Source: Treponema sp.
Lineage (GTDB): Bacteria > Spirochaetota > Spirochaetia > Treponematales > Breznakiellaceae
DNA: 8,400 nt
Reading direction: 5' to 3'
Assembly (NCBI GenBank): GCA_031278025.1
Contig: JAITLF010000014.1
Location: forward strand, 1 to 8,400
The position numbers were made by a program, and so were the translations under genes. Under the pieces are notes generated by a model that saw nothing but the letters and a program-made list of their open reading frames with translations, did not search any database and was not told the origin of the DNA. Shown in pieces: positions 1 through 6,836 of the stretch (the stretch's first letter is position 1; each line of letters starts with the position of its first letter).

Positions 1-175
1 GGTTCTGACGGCCAACTATCCGATACAAAGCCCGGGAAAAGACCGCAAGAAGTAAAGAACGGCCTGGAATCCGAAACTACCCGCATATTCCGGGCCTTTC
101 CCGGCAATGTAAATGTAAGGCTGTTTCGCTATGTGTAATTTCTAGACGGCCTGTATTCGCTGCCGCGTTCACCTT
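1..175. other. No recognisable complete gene; possible gene tail at left edge
   Basis: I recognise no gene here. On the plus strand, frame 2 is open from the window edge to a TAA at 53-55 and reads VLTANYPIQSPGKDRKK, a plausible basic C-terminus of a gene entering from the left. Frame 1 is also open to a TAA at 136-138, so the choice is not forced. A small hairpin (CCGGG 90-94 with CCCGG 100-104) follows but lacks a T-run. The minus strand of 77-175 continues the frame of the transposase fragment without family similarity that I can see. Confidence 0.25.
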
Positions 176-387
176 CGGCAATGTGAGAAAGGTTCCCAGC
201 CATTCCGCTTCCGCCGCAACGAAGGCCGCTATCCGGCTCCATTCATCCGCGGTTGCCAATACTCCTATCAGGGTGACCATCACGATATCCGACAGAAAAT
301 GCGCCACATACGGCTCAAACCGCTTGTCTTCCAGCGATTCAAATACCTCTCGAATATCCGCAACGACTCAATGTCGATGTTCTCCAT
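176..387 (-). pseudogene. ISAs1-family transposase, N-terminal remnant
   Basis: This is a decayed start of an ISAs1-family (H-repeat-like) DDE transposase. The ATG at 387-385 reads MENIDIESLR, and then the frame must shift by one base near 350-360 to continue as DIREVFESLEDKRFEPYVAH and on to LATADEWSRIAAFVAAEAEW and LGTFLTLP. That order of motifs (two-residue-spaced Glu/Arg start, 'LEDxR', 'ADEW..IA.F', 'WL.TFL.LP') matches the DDE_Tnp_1-associated N-terminal domain of the family. After LTLP the expected N-G-x-P-S-H-D-T block is missing and the sequence diverges, so the catalytic domain is gone. The fragment is about 70 of roughly 370 residues. It cannot be active, because it has both a frameshift and a truncation. 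It lies just left of an element with ISAs1-type ends, which may or may not be historically related. Family assignment is by motif recognition only. Confidence 0.65.
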
Positions 388-514
388 ACAGGTTACCCCT
401 TATTCAGCCATCATTTCCCGGATTTCCTGTATTTTGACGCTTTTCGCCATATTCCCCCTCCCTCTTTCCGTATGCGCCATTATGCGAGAATCGGACATTT
501 CTATGCGTTTATCT
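388..514. other. Short segment between transposase remnant and element; tiny ORF only
   Basis: On the minus strand a 26-codon ORF (480 down to 400; internal ATG at 450 giving MAKSVKIQEIREMMAE) ends 12 bases before the transposase remnant start. I do not recognise it and cannot say it is a gene. I looked for a CAGGG-type terminal repeat that would mark the outer end of the ISAs1 copy and did not find one. On the plus strand the last 11 codons (482-514) stay open into the target duplication and may belong to the interrupted aminotransferase gene described at 985-1143. Confidence 0.3.
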
Positions 515-524
515 GGGCGAATAA
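515..524. repeat. Target-site duplication, left copy
   Basis: GGGCGAATAA lies immediately outside the left terminal inverted repeat and is repeated without mismatch at 985-994 immediately outside the right one. Ten bases fits the 8-10 bp duplications known for ISAs1-family insertions. Confidence 0.9.
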
Positions 525-542
525 CAGGGCGAGCGCATTAAA
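525..542 (+). repeat. Left terminal inverted repeat of the 460-bp element
   Basis: CAGGGCGAGCGCATTAAA, 18 bp, exactly complementary to 967-984. Similarity between the two ends fades beyond 18 bp (left continues CATTCTTAGG, right inward AAAGAATACC). Confidence 0.9.
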
Positions 543-687
543 CATTCTTAGGGAGCAGCCGCCACAGGTTCCCTTACCGCCGCCGGCGGCCGCGACGCCT
601 TGCCAGACTTCATCATGATGTCCGGCGCGGTTTCTGGCGGCGGTACCGGCGGTACTACCGGCAACTGACGGCGGCGGGGCCTGCGGT

Positions 688-916
688 GTGTAAACCCAGG
701 GTTACGGCGTGTAAACCTGGGTTTTTGCGCCGAAAAAATGTTTTTGCGCTGCACAAAAGTGTTTTTGCGCTGCACAAAAGTGTTTTTGCGCTGCACAAAA
801 GTGTTTTTGCGCTGCACAAAAGTGTTTTTGCGCTACGGAAAAGTGTTTTTGCGCTGCGGAAAAATGTTTTTGCGCTGCGGAAAAGTGTTTTTGCGCTGCA
901 CAAACCCGGGTTTCTG
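688..916. repeat. 21-bp-period array of imperfect dyads
   Basis: Seven consecutive units of exactly 21 bp run from 740 to 886. Units 1-4 (740-823) are identical and contain TTTTTGCGCTGCACAAAA. Units 5-7 (824-886) carry CGGAAAA in place of CACAAAA, with small variations. Partial units lie at 721-739 and 887-904. The same period extends left: GTGTAAACC begins at 688 and again at 709, 21 bp apart. Each core is a dyad (TTTTGCGC, one base, GCACAAAA) with 7 of 8 pairs matched, and the variant units also keep 7 of 8. The edges are sharper palindromes: AACCCAGGGTT at 693-703 and the perfect AAACCCGGGTTT at 902-913. Because 21 is a multiple of three, several frames on both strands stay open through the array; I read these as by-products and not as proteins. 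Twenty-one bases is two helical turns, so protein binding or DNA bending is possible, but no function is shown. Confidence 0.9.
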
Positions 917-925
917 ATCGAAAAA

Positions 926-969
926 CCGGGGCCGGCAACACCGGAGCCCCGGCGGGGGTATTCTTTTTT
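926..969 (+). terminator. Terminator-like hairpin near right end of element
   Basis: CCGGGGC (926-932) pairs with GCCCCGG (946-952), extended inside by CGG (933-935) with CCG (941-943) across a two-base bulge, with a CAACA loop. A T-rich run, TTCTTTTTT, follows at 961-969. The eight-base gap between stem and T-run is longer than in a classical rho-independent terminator, so strength is uncertain. It would stop plus-strand transcripts leaving the element towards the aminotransferase tail and dehydrogenase. Confidence 0.4.
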
Positions 970-984
970 AATGCGCTCGCCCTG
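967..984 (-). repeat. Right terminal inverted repeat of the 460-bp element
   Basis: On the plus strand this reads TTTAATGCGCTCGCCCTG, the exact reverse complement of 525-542. It abuts the right duplication copy. Confidence 0.9.
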
Positions 985-994
985 GGGCGAATAA
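985..994. repeat. Target-site duplication, right copy
   Basis: GGGCGAATAA, identical to 515-524. In the aminotransferase frame it encodes Gly-Arg-Ile plus the first base of an Asn codon. Confidence 0.9.
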
Positions 995-1143
995 ACAGGG
1001 AACTTGTAAAACGGGGCTTTATGACCTATTCTTATGCGAACATGATCCTGGTGACGCCGCCGCTTATTAGTACGGCGGAGCAGCTCCCCGAAGAGATGGC
1101 GGGCATGGATGAAGCGCGTAACACGGCGGATGGAATGGTATGA
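985..1143 (+). pseudogene. Class-III aminotransferase, C-terminal tail, interrupted by the 460-bp element
   Basis: The frame reads GRINRELVKRGF, then MTYSYANMILVTPPLIST, AEQLPEEM and ends ADGMV at the TGA 1141-1143. The pattern (xRINxELxKRG, ANMILVTPPLI, then a Glu-rich last helix) is that of the small C-terminal domain of PLP-dependent class-III (omega) aminotransferases, which move an amino group from an amine donor to a keto acid. Only about 52 of an expected 420-450 residues remain. The 460-bp element has split the gene. Deleting it with one duplication copy joins 482-524 (MRESDISMRLSGRI) to 995 in frame, giving SGRINRELVKRG. Left of about 480 the gene is not recognisable, so a second loss has occurred there. 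The pyridoxal lysine domain is absent, so no activity is expected. The tail overlaps the next gene by ATGA, showing former translational coupling. An internal ATG at 1021 could give a 40-residue peptide of no evident use. Confidence 0.65.
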
Positions 1144-2252
1144 TGAATTATTACATGCCCACGAAAGTAGTGGGGGGCGAAAACGGTATTTTTGAGAACC
1201 GCTCGCTTTTTAAGGAACTGGGGAATAAGGCCCTGATTGTTACCGGACGGACTTCGGCCAAAAAAAACGGCTCCTGCGACGACGTGGTAAAAGCCCTGGA
1301 AGCCAACGGCCAGGCATATACCCTCTTTGATCGGGTGATGCCAAACCCGACGATAGCCTGCGCCTTTGACGCTGCCGGGGTGGCCCGGCGCGCGGCCTGT
1401 GATTTTGTCATTGCCCTGGGGGGCGGCTCTCCTAAGGATGTGGGCAAGGCGGCGGCGGCAGTTGCGGTGAACCCCCTGCCCTCCGGCGCCCTGTTTACAA
1501 CGCCTTTTGACAAAGCCCTGCCCGTGGCCGCCGTCCCCACCACCGCCGGGACCGGCTCGGAGGTAACCCAATACGCGCTGCTTACCAACGACGCCATTCA
1601 ATCAAAATCCTCTCTCTCCTCGCCCCTGCTCTTTCCCCGCGTCGCCTTCCTGGACCACCGGTATCTTTCGAGTTTGAGATGGAATACCATGATTAACACG
1701 GCCCTGGATGCCCTCTCCCATGCGGTAGAAGGTTCGCTGGGGGTACGCGCCTCGGCCTTTACGGAGGCCGCCGCGCAAAGGGGCATCCGGCTTTTTGCCG
1801 AATGCCTTCCCGCCCTCAAGTCCCGCAGCTTCGATGATCCCGCGGTCCGGAAGAAGCTGCTTTTTGCCGCAACCCTGGATGGTATGGTTATCGCCAACAC
1901 GGGAACGCTGGCGGTTCACGCTATGGGTTATTCCCTCACCTATTTCAAGAAGGTGGATCACGGCAGGGCCAATGCCCTCCTCCTCGGCGCGTATCTCAGG
2001 TTTGTTCACGGGAAGGAGAAAGCCGCCGGTACAAACCGTGTCGGCGAGATACTTGACGCACTGGGTATGAGAAACCTTGCCGAATTTGACGCCGCCATAG
2101 ACGAACTTTTGGGAGACCGGGAAAAACTCTCTGCCGCCGAAATCGAACACTACGCGGAGACCGCGATTCACGCCAAACACATCGCTAACGGCGTCATTAA
2201 ACCCGAAAAGACAGATCTGCTTGAGGTGCTGACAAGGTCTGTGGGCGGGTGA
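1140..2252 (+). CDS. Iron-containing alcohol dehydrogenase (group III)
   Basis: This is a cytosolic NAD(P)-dependent metal alcohol dehydrogenase that interconverts an aldehyde and a primary or secondary alcohol. The 370 residues are close to the usual 380-390 and cover both domains. The N-terminal Rossmann-like domain has GGGSPKD at 94-100, the dinucleotide motif, and PTTAGTGSEVT at 133-143. The all-helical domain supplies the metal ligands: Asp190 and His194 (in ALDALSHAVEG), His260 (LAVHAMGYS) and His274 (VDHGRANAL). All four are present, so the enzyme should be active. The start is ATG 1140 or the adjacent ATG 1143. ATG 1140 overlaps the stop of the aminotransferase tail (ATGA), with only a weak SD (GGATGGAA, 1128-1135), typical of coupled translation. 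The pairing suggests reduction of the aldehyde made by the transaminase, as in taurine or aminophosphonate pathways, but the substrate cannot be read from sequence. With the upstream gene broken, its expression may be reduced or rewired. Confidence 0.9.
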   Translation: MMNYYMPTKVVGGENGIFENRSLFKELGNKALIVTGRTSAKKNGSCDDVVKALEANGQAYTLFDRVMPNPTIACAFDAAGVARRAACDFVIALGGGSPKDVGKAAAAVAVNPLPSGALFTTPFDKALPVAAVPTTAGTGSEVTQYALLTNDAIQSKSSLSSPLLFPRVAFLDHRYLSSLRWNTMINTALDALSHAVEGSLGVRASAFTEAAAQRGIRLFAECLPALKSRSFDDPAVRKKLLFAATLDGMVIANTGTLAVHAMGYSLTYFKKVDHGRANALLLGAYLRFVHGKEKAAGTNRVGEILDALGMRNLAEFDAAIDELLGDREKLSAAEIEHYAETAIHAKHIANGVIKPEKTDLLEVLTRSVGG

Positions 2253-3307: not shown

Positions 3308-3370
3308 AGAGGCTGTTCCAAAACCCGCGCCGGCGTGCGGAACGCCGGCGCGGGTTTTGGAACAGCCTCT
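3308..3370. repeat. Perfect 29-bp-stem palindrome between convergent genes
   Basis: The arms 3308-3336 and 3342-3370 are exact reverse complements (29 bp each) around the loop GCGGA. The outer part is AGAGGCTGTTCCAAAACC and the inner part is GCGCCGGCG-rich. It lies 46 bp after the lipoprotein stop and overlaps the last two bases of the facing helicase-fusion stop codon (TAG, plus-strand 3369-3371). It could serve as a bidirectional terminator, helped by the internal GGGTTTT on either strand, although no T-run follows the full stem. The 'GGCTGTTCCAAAA' outer arm also resembles ends of some insertion sequences, and TAA occurs at both edges (3306-3308 and 3370-3372), so a dispersed mobile palindrome is an alternative. 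The structure is certain; the role is not. Confidence 0.9.
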
Positions 3371-6300
3371 AAAACAACCGGCCCTGAAGATCCCGGGGTT
3401 TCCGGTTTTCTTCACGGGAGAGGGGAACAAGTTCCTCCAGGTTTTCAAGGAACCTGCTTGGGCCGGCCTCCAATTTCCTCCCTCCCAGCATGCGTGTACG
3501 CGCCCAGGACAGGTACAGCCCCTGCCGCGCCCTGGTCATGGCTACGTAGAGAAGCCGCTTTTCTTCCGCTATCCGGTCCGCCGCCCCGCCTCCGGCGGTT
3601 TCGCCGCCGTAAAGGGTAAAGGGCAGGATTCCTTCTTCAAGGCCGGCGGTAAACACATGATCGAACTCCAGCCCCTTGGAAGCGTGAATGGTCATGACCC
3701 GCACAGCCTCCCGCTTTACCGGTTCATCAGGACCGCCGTCCCCGTTGCCGCTGACCGCCAGAACATCCAGAAATTCCCCAAGGCTTCCGTACATCCCCGC
3801 CAGGGTGCGGAGCCGTTCGGCATACCGCGCCCCGTCTTCGGTCTTTTCCCGTTTCCCGCGTCCTTTTACCGCCGCTTTCAGGGCGCCGTCCTTTTCCGCG
3901 TCTTCCCACGCCTGTTGTACCGCCTCTGCCGGGGACTGCCCGGTAAGCGGGGCCTGCCGCTCCCGCAGCCTGCCGAGTACCGTCTTGACCGGCTCCTCCT
4001 CCCACCAGGGCCGCTCCCCGGTAAGCTCGAAGGGAAGCCCGTGGTCCTTGAGGGCTTTGACAATGGGAGACGCCAGCGCCGCAGTCCGCACCAGGATCGC
4101 GCACTCCCCAAGACTCGTGAGTCCCGCCCCCGGCGTTTTCTCCGCCCCGTCCGTACCGTGTCCCGCCACGCGGCTGTCCAGGGCGAAAAAGCTCGTTCCC
4201 CCGATAAGCCGGGCTATGCGCCGGGCTATGCCTTCGGCCTCGGACTTTTCCGTCGGGTATTCGGCCCGGAACAGGCTCACCGCCTGTTCCGTCCCCACCA
4301 GGCGGGCGCCGGTCAGCCGTCCCGCAGCGTTGATGATGGGGCCGCCGCAGCGGAAACTCCGGGACAGATAAAAGGTCTCCGCGCCGGGGTAATCCTGCGC
4401 AAACCGGTCCAGGAACCGCTTGTCCGCCCCCCGGAACCCGTAGATCGCCTGGTTGGGGTCCCCGATGACCCGGAGTTCAAAAAGCGGCGCTCCCCCGCCG
4501 GCCTCCTGGTCGTTGGGGGCCAGGAGGCGTACCAGGACATACTGGGCGAAGTTCACGTCCTGATACTCGTCCACCAGGATACAGCGGTACCGGCCCCGGT
4601 ACTTCGAAAGGAGGGCGGGGTTTCCCGCCAGAAGCCGTACGGTTCCCGCAATAAGGTCGTCAAAGTCCAGCAGGGCATCTTCCCGGAGCCGCGCGTGGTA
4701 ACGGCCGTAGAGGGCCTCGGCTTCCGCGTTGGCCGTCTCAAGGCCAAAGGTTCCCGCCAACTCCGGCACCGATGCCAGGAAGGGAGGGGCGGAACCGGCC
4801 CTGCGGCCGCCCGGCCGGGGTGCGGTTTCCCCCGGCAGGAGCAGGAACCGCTTCCGGGTTTCGATGTACTTCCCCAGACCCTGGGGCCGCATCCCCGGTT
4901 TCCCCGGCGCGGCCTGGAGGATCTCCTCCAAAATCCGGTCCCGCTCGGATTCGCTCAATACGGTAAAACCCTCAGGCGTACCCGCATCCGGCGGCTGTTC
5001 CCGCAGCAGGGAGCAGCACAGGGAATGGAAGGTAGCGGCGGTTACGGCGGCGGCGGCGCCCCCCGGGACCGTCCGGGCGATACGCTCCCGAAGCTCCCCC
5101 GCAGCCTTCACGGTAAAGCTGAGGGCCAGAATAGATGCGGGGTCCCGGCCCTCGTGGATGAGTCGGGCTATCCTGGCGGTAACCGCCGCAGTCTTCCCCG
5201 TACCCGGCCCGGCGACGATGGCGGCGTAGCGCCCGCCGTAGGAAACCGCCGCTTCCTGGTCCCGGTCAAGGGTGAAAGCCGGGGCAGCCCCGGCCCGCGC
5301 CGCCGGAACCGCCTGACCCCGGGGCCGGGGGGCCGCCGCCGTTCCGCCGCGCTTTTTTCCTTCAGAAACCGCTCCCCGTGTCCGCCCTCCGGAATCAGCA
5401 GGCGGCGGCCCAAAATCCGCAGGGAGGCCGAAGAGATCCGGCCCTCCCGAAAGGACGGGCTTCCAGCCGGGCGGAAAAGCCCGGATTATCCCGTATTCCC
5501 CGTCGTAACCGGGAGTAACTGACACGTCGCCGCGGCGCATCCGGGTAACGGCGGCGGCCAGGAGTTCCCCCGAAAGGCCGGGCCACGTAAGCCCGGCAAT
5601 GTCCCGCGCATCCATGTCCAGCAGGATGGCGAATTCGCTCCCCGCCTTTTCTATCAATCCGGCATAAGCGGCCTTCACCTTCCTGGAAGCCACGCCGGTT
5701 TCCAGGATCTCCCCCAGCAGTTCCGGCAACGGGATGAGGGATCGGTAAGGCCGCCGGTTGGCGGGCCCCCGGACGGCGGGCCTGAACTCGGCGGCCCCGT
5801 CCGGGGGCGGGCAGGGGGCCGTCTCGTCCACCGGGCGGTCGGCCAGTTCCAGGACCCGGCCCATCACGCCCCTGGTCAGCGGCCTCCCGCATACCGGGCA
5901 GATGCCGCCGGAGGCCGCCGCTTCCTGGGGGGTACAAAAAAAGCCGCACTTGCGGTGGCCGTCGTAGTGGTACTTCCCTTCCTGGGGAAAAAATTCGATG
6001 GTTCCGGCGATACGGTTTCCGGCGCCCCCTGCCCCGGAAGCGGCAGGCGCCGGACCGGCAGACCACAGGGCGTCCTGCAACGAAGGATAATCCAGGTTCA
6101 TATCGAAAACCGTGGCTTCCCGGCCCAGTTTTTCCGGGGAATGGGCGTCGGAATTGGAAATGATGGCGAACCGGTCCAGGGCGGCAAGGGCCCAGTTCAT
6201 CGGCGGGTTGGAGGAAAGCCCGGTTTCCACTGCCGGAATGCGGGAGACCAGATCGCCGTAACATTCGTCCAGGGAATCAAAGCCCGACTGCGCGCCCAGG

Positions 6301-6836
6301 GCGGAAAACCAGGGGGTCCAGATATGGGCGGGGATGAGCGCGGCCCTTTCGTCCGTATCCAGGAGCATGGCCAGGAGGTCCCGGGAATCCATTCCCAGGA
6401 TGGGCCGCCCGTCGGAACGAATGTTGCCGCCCGCCCGTTCCAGCCGGGCTTGAAAAGAAGCCGCTGCCGTGAAATCGGGCAGGATGATAAGGTGATGCAC
6501 CTTCCGGACAGCCGCCCCCTGTTTGTAAACCGTGCTGACCTCCCCGGTAAGAACAAACCGGGGAACATCCCCCGCCGGCGTGGGGAGCCCTTCGGCCAGG
6601 GCGGGCCCCCGGTCGAATTCCGCCCGTACCGGCTCCTTTAGGGCGTACAGCCCCGGTTCGCGCTCCTCAAGGCGATCCCTCAGTTCCGCCAGCCACAGGG
6701 GATGGGTGCAATCCCCCGCGCCCAACAGGTTTATCCCCTTGATCCGGGCCCACCGGTCCAGATACACAGGGGTCAGCTTCTTTCCCGTAGCACGGGAAAA
6801 CCGGGAATGAATGTGCAGGTCTGCAATAACACGCAT
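3369..6836 (-). CDS. Endonuclease Q-like PHP nuclease fused to UvrD/PcrA-type helicase
   Basis: This 1155-residue two-part DNA-repair enzyme has an N-terminal half (1-about 465) that follows archaeal/bacterial endonuclease Q, which nicks 5' of uracil, hypoxanthine or abasic sites. The PHP metal motif DLHIHSRFSRA is at 6-16, GEVS at 98-101 (Glu99), HH at 114-115, IPAHIWTPWF at 168-177, ETGLSS at 204-209, SNSDAHSP at 227-234, and FFPQEGKYH at 282-290. A four-Cys zinc site follows (Cys297, 301, 313, 316). After a low-complexity Gly/Ala/Arg/Pro linker (about 475-520) comes a full superfamily-1 helicase: Q-motif Gln527, Walker A AGPGTGKT (542-549, Lys548), DEYQD (756-760), GDPNQAIYGFRG (792-803), MTIHASKGLEFD (1048-1059) and YVAMTRAR (1097-1104). 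All key residues are intact. The start is fixed by DLHIHS at residue 6; GAGG is only one base from the ATG, so initiation may be leaderless. The gene stands alone, convergent with the lipoprotein gene. The fusion suggests nicking followed by unwinding from the nick. Confidence 0.9.
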   Translation of the reverse strand: MRVIADLHIHSRFSRATGKKLTPVYLDRWARIKGINLLGAGDCTHPLWLAELRDRLEEREPGLYALKEPVRAEFDRGPALAEGLPTPAGDVPRFVLTGEVSTVYKQGAAVRKVHHLIILPDFTAAASFQARLERAGGNIRSDGRPILGMDSRDLLAMLLDTDERAALIPAHIWTPWFSALGAQSGFDSLDECYGDLVSRIPAVETGLSSNPPMNWALAALDRFAIISNSDAHSPEKLGREATVFDMNLDYPSLQDALWSAGPAPAASGAGGAGNRIAGTIEFFPQEGKYHYDGHRKCGFFCTPQEAAASGGICPVCGRPLTRGVMGRVLELADRPVDETAPCPPPDGAAEFRPAVRGPANRRPYRSLIPLPELLGEILETGVASRKVKAAYAGLIEKAGSEFAILLDMDARDIAGLTWPGLSGELLAAAVTRMRRGDVSVTPGYDGEYGIIRAFPPGWKPVLSGGPDLFGLPADFGPPPADSGGRTRGAVSEGKKRGGTAAAPRPRGQAVPAARAGAAPAFTLDRDQEAAVSYGGRYAAIVAGPGTGKTAAVTARIARLIHEGRDPASILALSFTVKAAGELRERIARTVPGGAAAAVTAATFHSLCCSLLREQPPDAGTPEGFTVLSESERDRILEEILQAAPGKPGMRPQGLGKYIETRKRFLLLPGETAPRPGGRRAGSAPPFLASVPELAGTFGLETANAEAEALYGRYHARLREDALLDFDDLIAGTVRLLAGNPALLSKYRGRYRCILVDEYQDVNFAQYVLVRLLAPNDQEAGGGAPLFELRVIGDPNQAIYGFRGADKRFLDRFAQDYPGAETFYLSRSFRCGGPIINAAGRLTGARLVGTEQAVSLFRAEYPTEKSEAEGIARRIARLIGGTSFFALDSRVAGHGTDGAEKTPGAGLTSLGECAILVRTAALASPIVKALKDHGLPFELTGERPWWEEEPVKTVLGRLRERQAPLTGQSPAEAVQQAWEDAEKDGALKAAVKGRGKREKTEDGARYAERLRTLAGMYGSLGEFLDVLAVSGNGDGGPDEPVKREAVRVMTIHASKGLEFDHVFTAGLEEGILPFTLYGGETAGGGAADRIAEEKRLLYVAMTRARQGLYLSWARTRMLGGRKLEAGPSRFLENLEELVPLSREENRKPRDLQGRLF

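Follow-up and report, generated by a model that had tools for sequence, protein, structure and literature searches.

A transposase-free 460-bp element with ISAs1-type ends and an internal 21-bp tandem array in Treponema

The locus and its neighbors

The stretch of DNA analyzed here (hereafter "the window") comprises the first 8,400 nucleotides of a Treponema sp. contig (JAITLF010000014.1), and its left part is dominated by two adjoining mobile element sequences. A 460-bp element occupies positions 525–984 (the interval of 515–994 given in the original prediction additionally takes in both of the flanking 10-bp duplications), and on the left it adjoins another ISAs1-type IS, which is decayed and of which the 5' part is seen (169–515, minus strand); the end of this IS, when read leftwards, is CAGATAAACGCATAGAAA. 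The open reading frame at 77–307 matches the N-terminal part of a transposase (PF13808, E 3e-7, 30.7 bits versus a cut-off of 32.3; 22.2 bits to the NCBIfam ISAs1 model NF033564, whose cut-off is 70), and positions 169–513 share 80% DNA identity with an IS of genome G011, whose end is of the same sequence type. As this second IS ends at 515, with only 9 bp between it and the 460-bp element, and as the left copy of the duplication (515–524) has the last base of the neighboring IS end for its own first base, the element seems to have been inserted into a target directly at the edge of the older IS insertion. Such an end-next-to-end arrangement, in which a CAGGGCGAGCGCAT-type end lies 9–10 bp (one duplication length) from the end of a different ISAs1-type IS (CAGGATAAACGCATAGAAA type), was seen in 2 of the 81 distinct end contexts, namely, at 498–525 of the window and at 250–278 of locus L061 (genome G012), where the second IS type lies at 10 bp; judging from the sequences, it looks as if a second element had reused the target site of the first one in both.

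To the right of the element, the last 51 codons and the stop of an aminotransferase gene (988–1143, plus strand; named by eye), the 5' part of which is absent, are followed by a gene for an iron-containing alcohol dehydrogenase (1140–2252, plus strand), which has 93% identical relatives in L001 and L002, two loci from Treponema sp. MAGs that, judging from the isolate names, we take to be termite-gut genomes; the Treponema carrying the 460-bp element is probably from a termite gut as well. The aminotransferase gene is complete in L002, where a 445-codon open frame, which looks, by eye, like a class III aminotransferase, lies left of the dehydrogenase. Relatives reveal an empty site in part: L001 and L002 both continue through the right insertion point without the element, but homology of the window to them starts only at 987, and, since the other IS lies on the left where the remainder of the aminotransferase gene would be, an empty site can be made out clearly on the right side only. 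Upstream of the aminotransferase and dehydrogenase genes, L002 (4454–11065) has frames that look, by eye, like genes of reductive pyrimidine catabolism. The DNA of L002 is ~94% identical to positions 987–2252 of the window, and the PHP/UvrD-like protein of genome G002 is 58% identical to that of the window; this suggests horizontal transfer of the pyrimidine-catabolism/aminotransferase/dehydrogenase cluster, which in the window is cut at the element.

The PHP/UvrD-like protein just mentioned is encoded at 3369–6836 (minus strand) as a single protein, whose N-terminal region has a PHP-associated match, albeit a weak one, and which continues as a UvrD-type helicase. When 15 genomes were compared, full-length or partial relatives of it (57–94% identity) were present in 14, whereas the match in G008 was one of 33% only. 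The closest was that of G001 (94% over residues 784–1155), followed by those of G014 (80%), G013 (79%), G012 (70% over residues 1–458), G180 (64%) and, as given above, G002. G001, G013 and G014 constitute one genus of our collection, and G002–G012 another; by these identities, the organism of the window probably belongs to the former.

Structure of the element

The ends of the 460-bp element are just as originally described, the arms at 525–542 and 967–984 being 18 nt long and 100% complementary, and so is the exact 10-bp target duplication, GGGCGAATAA, which is found at 515–524 and again, identically, at 985–994. No other structure in the window was picked up when perfect inverted ends (14 bp or longer), spaced 30–1500 bp apart and adjoined by an identical direct repeat of 8–12 bp, were scanned for, and the same scan found paired ends with a duplication in 0 of 200 Markov-1 random sequences of window composition. 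Mismatch-free ends and duplication, which are the sole basis for dating it, make a recent insertion plausible.

Reading the element from left to right, its left terminal repeat, CAGGGCGAGCGCATTAAA (525–542, plus strand), has the sequence found at either end of a full ISAs1-family IS and is the outer portion of a 51-bp segment (525–575, plus strand), for which the right end (transposase 3' side) of a related IS is the source. This segment is 92% identical to the right end of an IS in G180 (E 3e-17), while its first 39 bp are 87% identical to the right end of the IS in G006. A GC-rich imperfect hairpin (575–645) comes next; in the copy of the element found in G180 (see below), a perfect 28-bp stem and 30 bp more than in the window are seen there. 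It is followed by the only tandem array inside the element, 8.9 copies of the 21-bp unit GTTTTTGCGCTGCACAAAAGT (721–904), and by a GC-rich hairpin with a subsequent T-rich run (926–966, plus strand), which resembles a terminator and may function as one, although such terminator-like sites are not enriched in window positions 1–1300 (2 found versus 2.2 expected from shuffles). The last 22 bp (963–984, minus strand), which contain the right 18-bp repeat, are the same as in related ISs, where they form the left end (transposase 5' side). The GC content of the whole element is 56%.

That no transposase is encoded inside holds true: none of the four interior ORFs (counted from at least 60 aa, spanning 79–102 aa) has a Pfam match, and, in comparison with the ISs of G006 and G180, ~387 bp of the interior are unrelated to IS sequence. 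The predicted fold of the element is better than that of 100 out of 100 shuffles (z of −6.6 and −11.0). The frame at 552–668 (plus strand), which is open to its stop and ends in ...DFIMMSGAVSGGGTGGTTGN, persists in the copy of G180, where the extra 30 bp are a multiple of three; it may be the remaining 3' end of a captured gene, for which no relatives were identified. Searching 72,556 plasmid records returned no match to the element, its exact 18-bp end was not found in viral contigs, and no Rfam matches were obtained in the window at gathering scores. Short interior matches in G082 (two), G100, G104, G176, G065, G110 and G125 were dropped, as they fall into differing reading frames, are in some cases glycine-rich and have nothing in common.

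An autonomous IS with the same ends

A full-length ISAs1 copy having the same ends, the existence of which had been proposed as a check, is indeed present in a relative: the IS in G006 is 1266 bp long, has identical 18-bp ends and a 10-bp duplication of its own (GAGAAAATTT), and encodes a 400-codon frame whose product scores 395.8 bits against the NCBIfam ISAs1 model (cut-off of 70). Target duplications of the ISAs1 family are 8–10 bp long, and the assignment of the 460-bp element's ends and duplication to this family stands, as they have the CAGGG start, the 18-bp length and the 10-bp duplication of the G006 IS. G001, the closest genome compared, has an identical 18-bp end as well, and the frame that comes after it looks, by eye, like the same transposase. 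The homology of the element to this IS group is confined to the ends, element positions 1–51 corresponding to the IS right end and 439–460 (at 100%) to the IS left end, which is the anatomy expected of an IS that kept its ends and exchanged its middle.

Allowing for up to 2 mismatches, the 18-bp end was found in all three genomes of the G001 genus and in 10 of the 11 of the G002 genus, the backwards control pattern matching none in either, and many of these matches are variant ends (e.g., CAGGGCGAGCGCATATAA). At least nine contigs in G002, G003, G006 and G012 break off at a distance of 117–119 bp from an end's outer edge, as is expected when a short-read assembly meets a multi-copy IS.

Further copies and related elements

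Further copies, each flanked by its own duplication, had also been anticipated; a second full-length copy exists in G180, but it has no detectable duplication. When the interior was searched for in 195 genomes of the family, 12 had some match at E 1e-3 and the whole element was found only in G180, no full-length interior copy being recovered from the other 194 assemblies, of which short-read ones lose repeats. Among 390 genomes drawn from the order, five matched the interior at 1e-5, again at full length in G180 only. A 20-base interior pattern (2 mismatches) matched 10 of the 195 genomes, once or twice each; as its backwards control matched three genomes as well, only the G180 matches of this pattern count.

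The G180 copy is 512 bp long, has one mismatch in each 18-bp end and does not share the site of the window copy, the gene downstream of it being another one. The two are identical at 424 of the 460 aligned positions, with 52 further gap columns, the identity being 165/184 in the array and 259/276 (93.8%) outside it. As the PHP/UvrD-like proteins of the two genomes are only 64% identical, this DNA identity outside the array points to a putative transfer of the element between lineages, be it by direct movement or by sharing via a mobile pool. A search of the 39 genomes of the genus of G180 for an allele lacking this copy matched nothing but G180 itself.

A second MITE family, 127 bp in length, is present in G007 as three complete copies (L053:480–606, L054:550–676 and L055:517–643; 114–120 of 127 positions identical), with further ends in L058 and L066. 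Its ends differ from the 18-mer by 0–2 bases, one of the three complete copies has a 10-bp duplication, and, apart from nearly the same ends, it is unrelated to the 460-bp element, so that the IS group has given rise to at least two MITE lines. Across all fetched loci, 13 distinct elements with paired ends were counted when as many as 4 mismatches were allowed in each end; 3 of them have an exact 10-bp duplication, whereas the other 10, the G180 copy included, are without any duplication of 4–12 bp.

The 21-bp tandem array

The copy number of the array is equal in the window and G180 elements, and differences between units tend to recur in successive ones (the first four full window units have CACAAAAG, and G180 has CGGAAAAG), which suggests that homogenization among the units may have taken place. 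A unit of 21 bp amounts to about two helical turns. The units are near-palindromic at 14 of 21 positions, as much being reached by 9.3% and 2.9% of the shuffles; of 18 array units tested for a dyad, 9 had a shuffle fraction below 0.1 and 9 had no clear dyad, and a general dyad rule for the arrays, which is thus only partly true, was abandoned.

In low-numbered contigs of 17 genomes, period 21 accounted for 14 of the 46 non-overlapping arrays (the next commonest periods having three each), these fourteen being from G020 (six), G143 (four), G001 (two, of 2–3 copies) and G006 (two, of 2–3 copies). No period-21 arrays were present in 133 kb of G180 or in 52 kb of G002. A wider set of loci agrees on period 21, but includes similarity-chosen and duplicate loci. 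Locus-specific arrays whose period is exactly 21 bp, or else 20 or 23 bp, are frequent in some genomes of the family and absent from the sampled contigs of others; examples from G020, G143 and G134 are L183:894–1582, L182:5703–6314, L184:238–445, L187:2467–2703 and L130:716–906. The partial matches to the array in G134, G020, G143 and G356 (69–79% identity over parts) were considered as its possible source and set aside as analogues; those in the first three turned out to be 21-bp arrays on inspection, and no paired ends (up to 5 mismatches) were found around them.

Origin and mobility of the element

The explanation we favor, with a probability of roughly 0.9, is that the 460-bp element is a non-autonomous ISAs1-family MITE in Treponema, the ends of which come from an IS, the middle of which has been replaced and which has been moved in trans. 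Of a full ISAs1-family element, ~51 bp on the right and 22 bp on the left would have been retained, and everything between them, the transposase gene included, would have been exchanged for unrelated DNA with the GC-rich hairpin, the nine-unit 21-bp array and the terminator-like hairpin. An ISAs1 transposase made elsewhere in the cell would then recognize the 18–22 bp ends and excise or copy the element, the insertion of which with a 10-bp staggered cut would leave the flanking duplication; the array and the hairpins may affect transcripts. The element most likely transposes in trans, and we infer that the partner IS is present in the genome of the window organism itself. The middle of the ancestral IS was presumably lost by exchange between the kept ends, and the array is presumably cargo that movement does not need.

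A dead relic, i.e., a plain deletion derivative of an ISAs1 IS whose middle disappeared where it stood and which was never mobile as a whole, would share the match of its ends to the IS, and shortened pairs do exist in G007, where two of 791 and 800 bp have longest frames of 184 and 127 codons and interiors that look, by eye, like decayed transposase. The interior of the 460-bp element, however, is not IS sequence, the same 460–512 bp structure sits at another site in a second species and has, therefore, travelled as a unit, and the exact 10-bp duplication around the short form also fits an insertion of the short form, so that we hold this origin to be improbable. Far more improbable still, to the point of being negligible, is that the inverted ends and the duplication are due to chance or are an artefact of assembly: the window is possibly metagenome-assembled and contigs of relatives break at these repeats, but chance occurrences were absent from the 200 random sequences, and the same ends and an almost identical element recur in other assemblies.

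A proposal that is compatible with the MITE interpretation places the function in the array, the repeats of which would bind proteins or structure RNA and would be spread by the IS ends (e.g., as mobile terminators or RNA stabilizers). The retention of 8.9 units in both copies despite their divergence, the near-palindromic units together with a fold better than all 100 shuffles, and the stand-alone arrays with periods of 20–23 in other genomes of the family speak for it; the folding, however, is partly forced by the inverted ends and repeats, half of the 18 array units tested are without a clear dyad, and the array is less conserved than the rest of the element (165/184 versus 259/276). We know of no protein or transcript that uses the array and regard such a function as rather unlikely, if less so than a relic. 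Equally speculative is a broader proposal, in which Treponema of this family use, or suffer from, locus-specific ~21-bp arrays, one of which was captured by an ISAs1 MITE that now spreads a phased binding or RNA-structure platform across species. If this were true, the ISAs1 MITE would be a carrier of ready-made repeat platforms between species. The frequency of 21-bp arrays in some genomes of the family might merit a separate study.

Comparison with known systems

As to precedents, no clear report of an ISAs1-derived MITE was found in the literature searched, to which most subscription papers do not belong: in its accessible part, one paper assigns two ISs and two MITEs to ISAs1 and IS630 without stating which is which (PMC11298459), and the term ISAs1 was not found in the accessible part of a review (PMC10969869). 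The same literature, with the same limit on subscription papers, returned no report of bacterial MITEs with internal tandem repeats; nothing on point for 21-bp arrays or termite Treponema transposases was among the matches listed, and the only match listed for ISAs1 together with Treponema in the open literature concerns rodent gut microbiota. With the 460-bp element, an ISAs1-related MITE that has a matching autonomous partner is now on record for this lineage, and, as a MITE common to two distant genomes of one family with its nine-unit array intact, it offers a handle on gene flow and on the spread of tandem arrays.

Ends of 14–22 bp starting with CAGGG and a 10-bp repeat are given for ISAs1 elements in the accessible part of PMC11946415. 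The 460-bp element has the 18-bp CAGGG ends and the 10-bp duplication, and its ends are common to an ISAs1-family IS in a relative, but it is devoid of a DDE transposase, which makes it a derivative rather than an IS.

Bacterial MITEs, as far as the accessible text of two papers goes, are thought to be mobilized in trans, e.g., MITEPye1 with IS1182 and TIMEs with Tn3 (PMC11578231, PMC4133298). Ends shared with an autonomous IS, by which a MITE is recognized, were found here in relatives. Small size, the lack of a transposase, IS/transposon-like inverted ends, a target duplication and a stable predicted RNA fold are likewise in common with those MITEs as described in the accessible text, whereas the ISAs1 partner, the length of 460 bp versus 30–300 bp (PMC4133298), a composition that is not AT-rich and the 21-bp array set the present element apart.

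The internal module of BOX elements is longer than a 21-bp unit. These small interspersed elements of Streptococcus pneumoniae have, according to the accessible part of PMC3049150, a repeatable boxB module between fixed outer modules, a layout of an internal repeatable module between fixed outer parts that is shared by the 460-bp element; the BOX elements, however, have only low similarity to IS ends in that account, whereas the ends of the 460-bp element match those of an IS exactly and its unit is 21 bp. Set against these systems, the 460-bp element is real but of a fairly ordinary kind, and is unusual mainly for its array of 21-base repeats.
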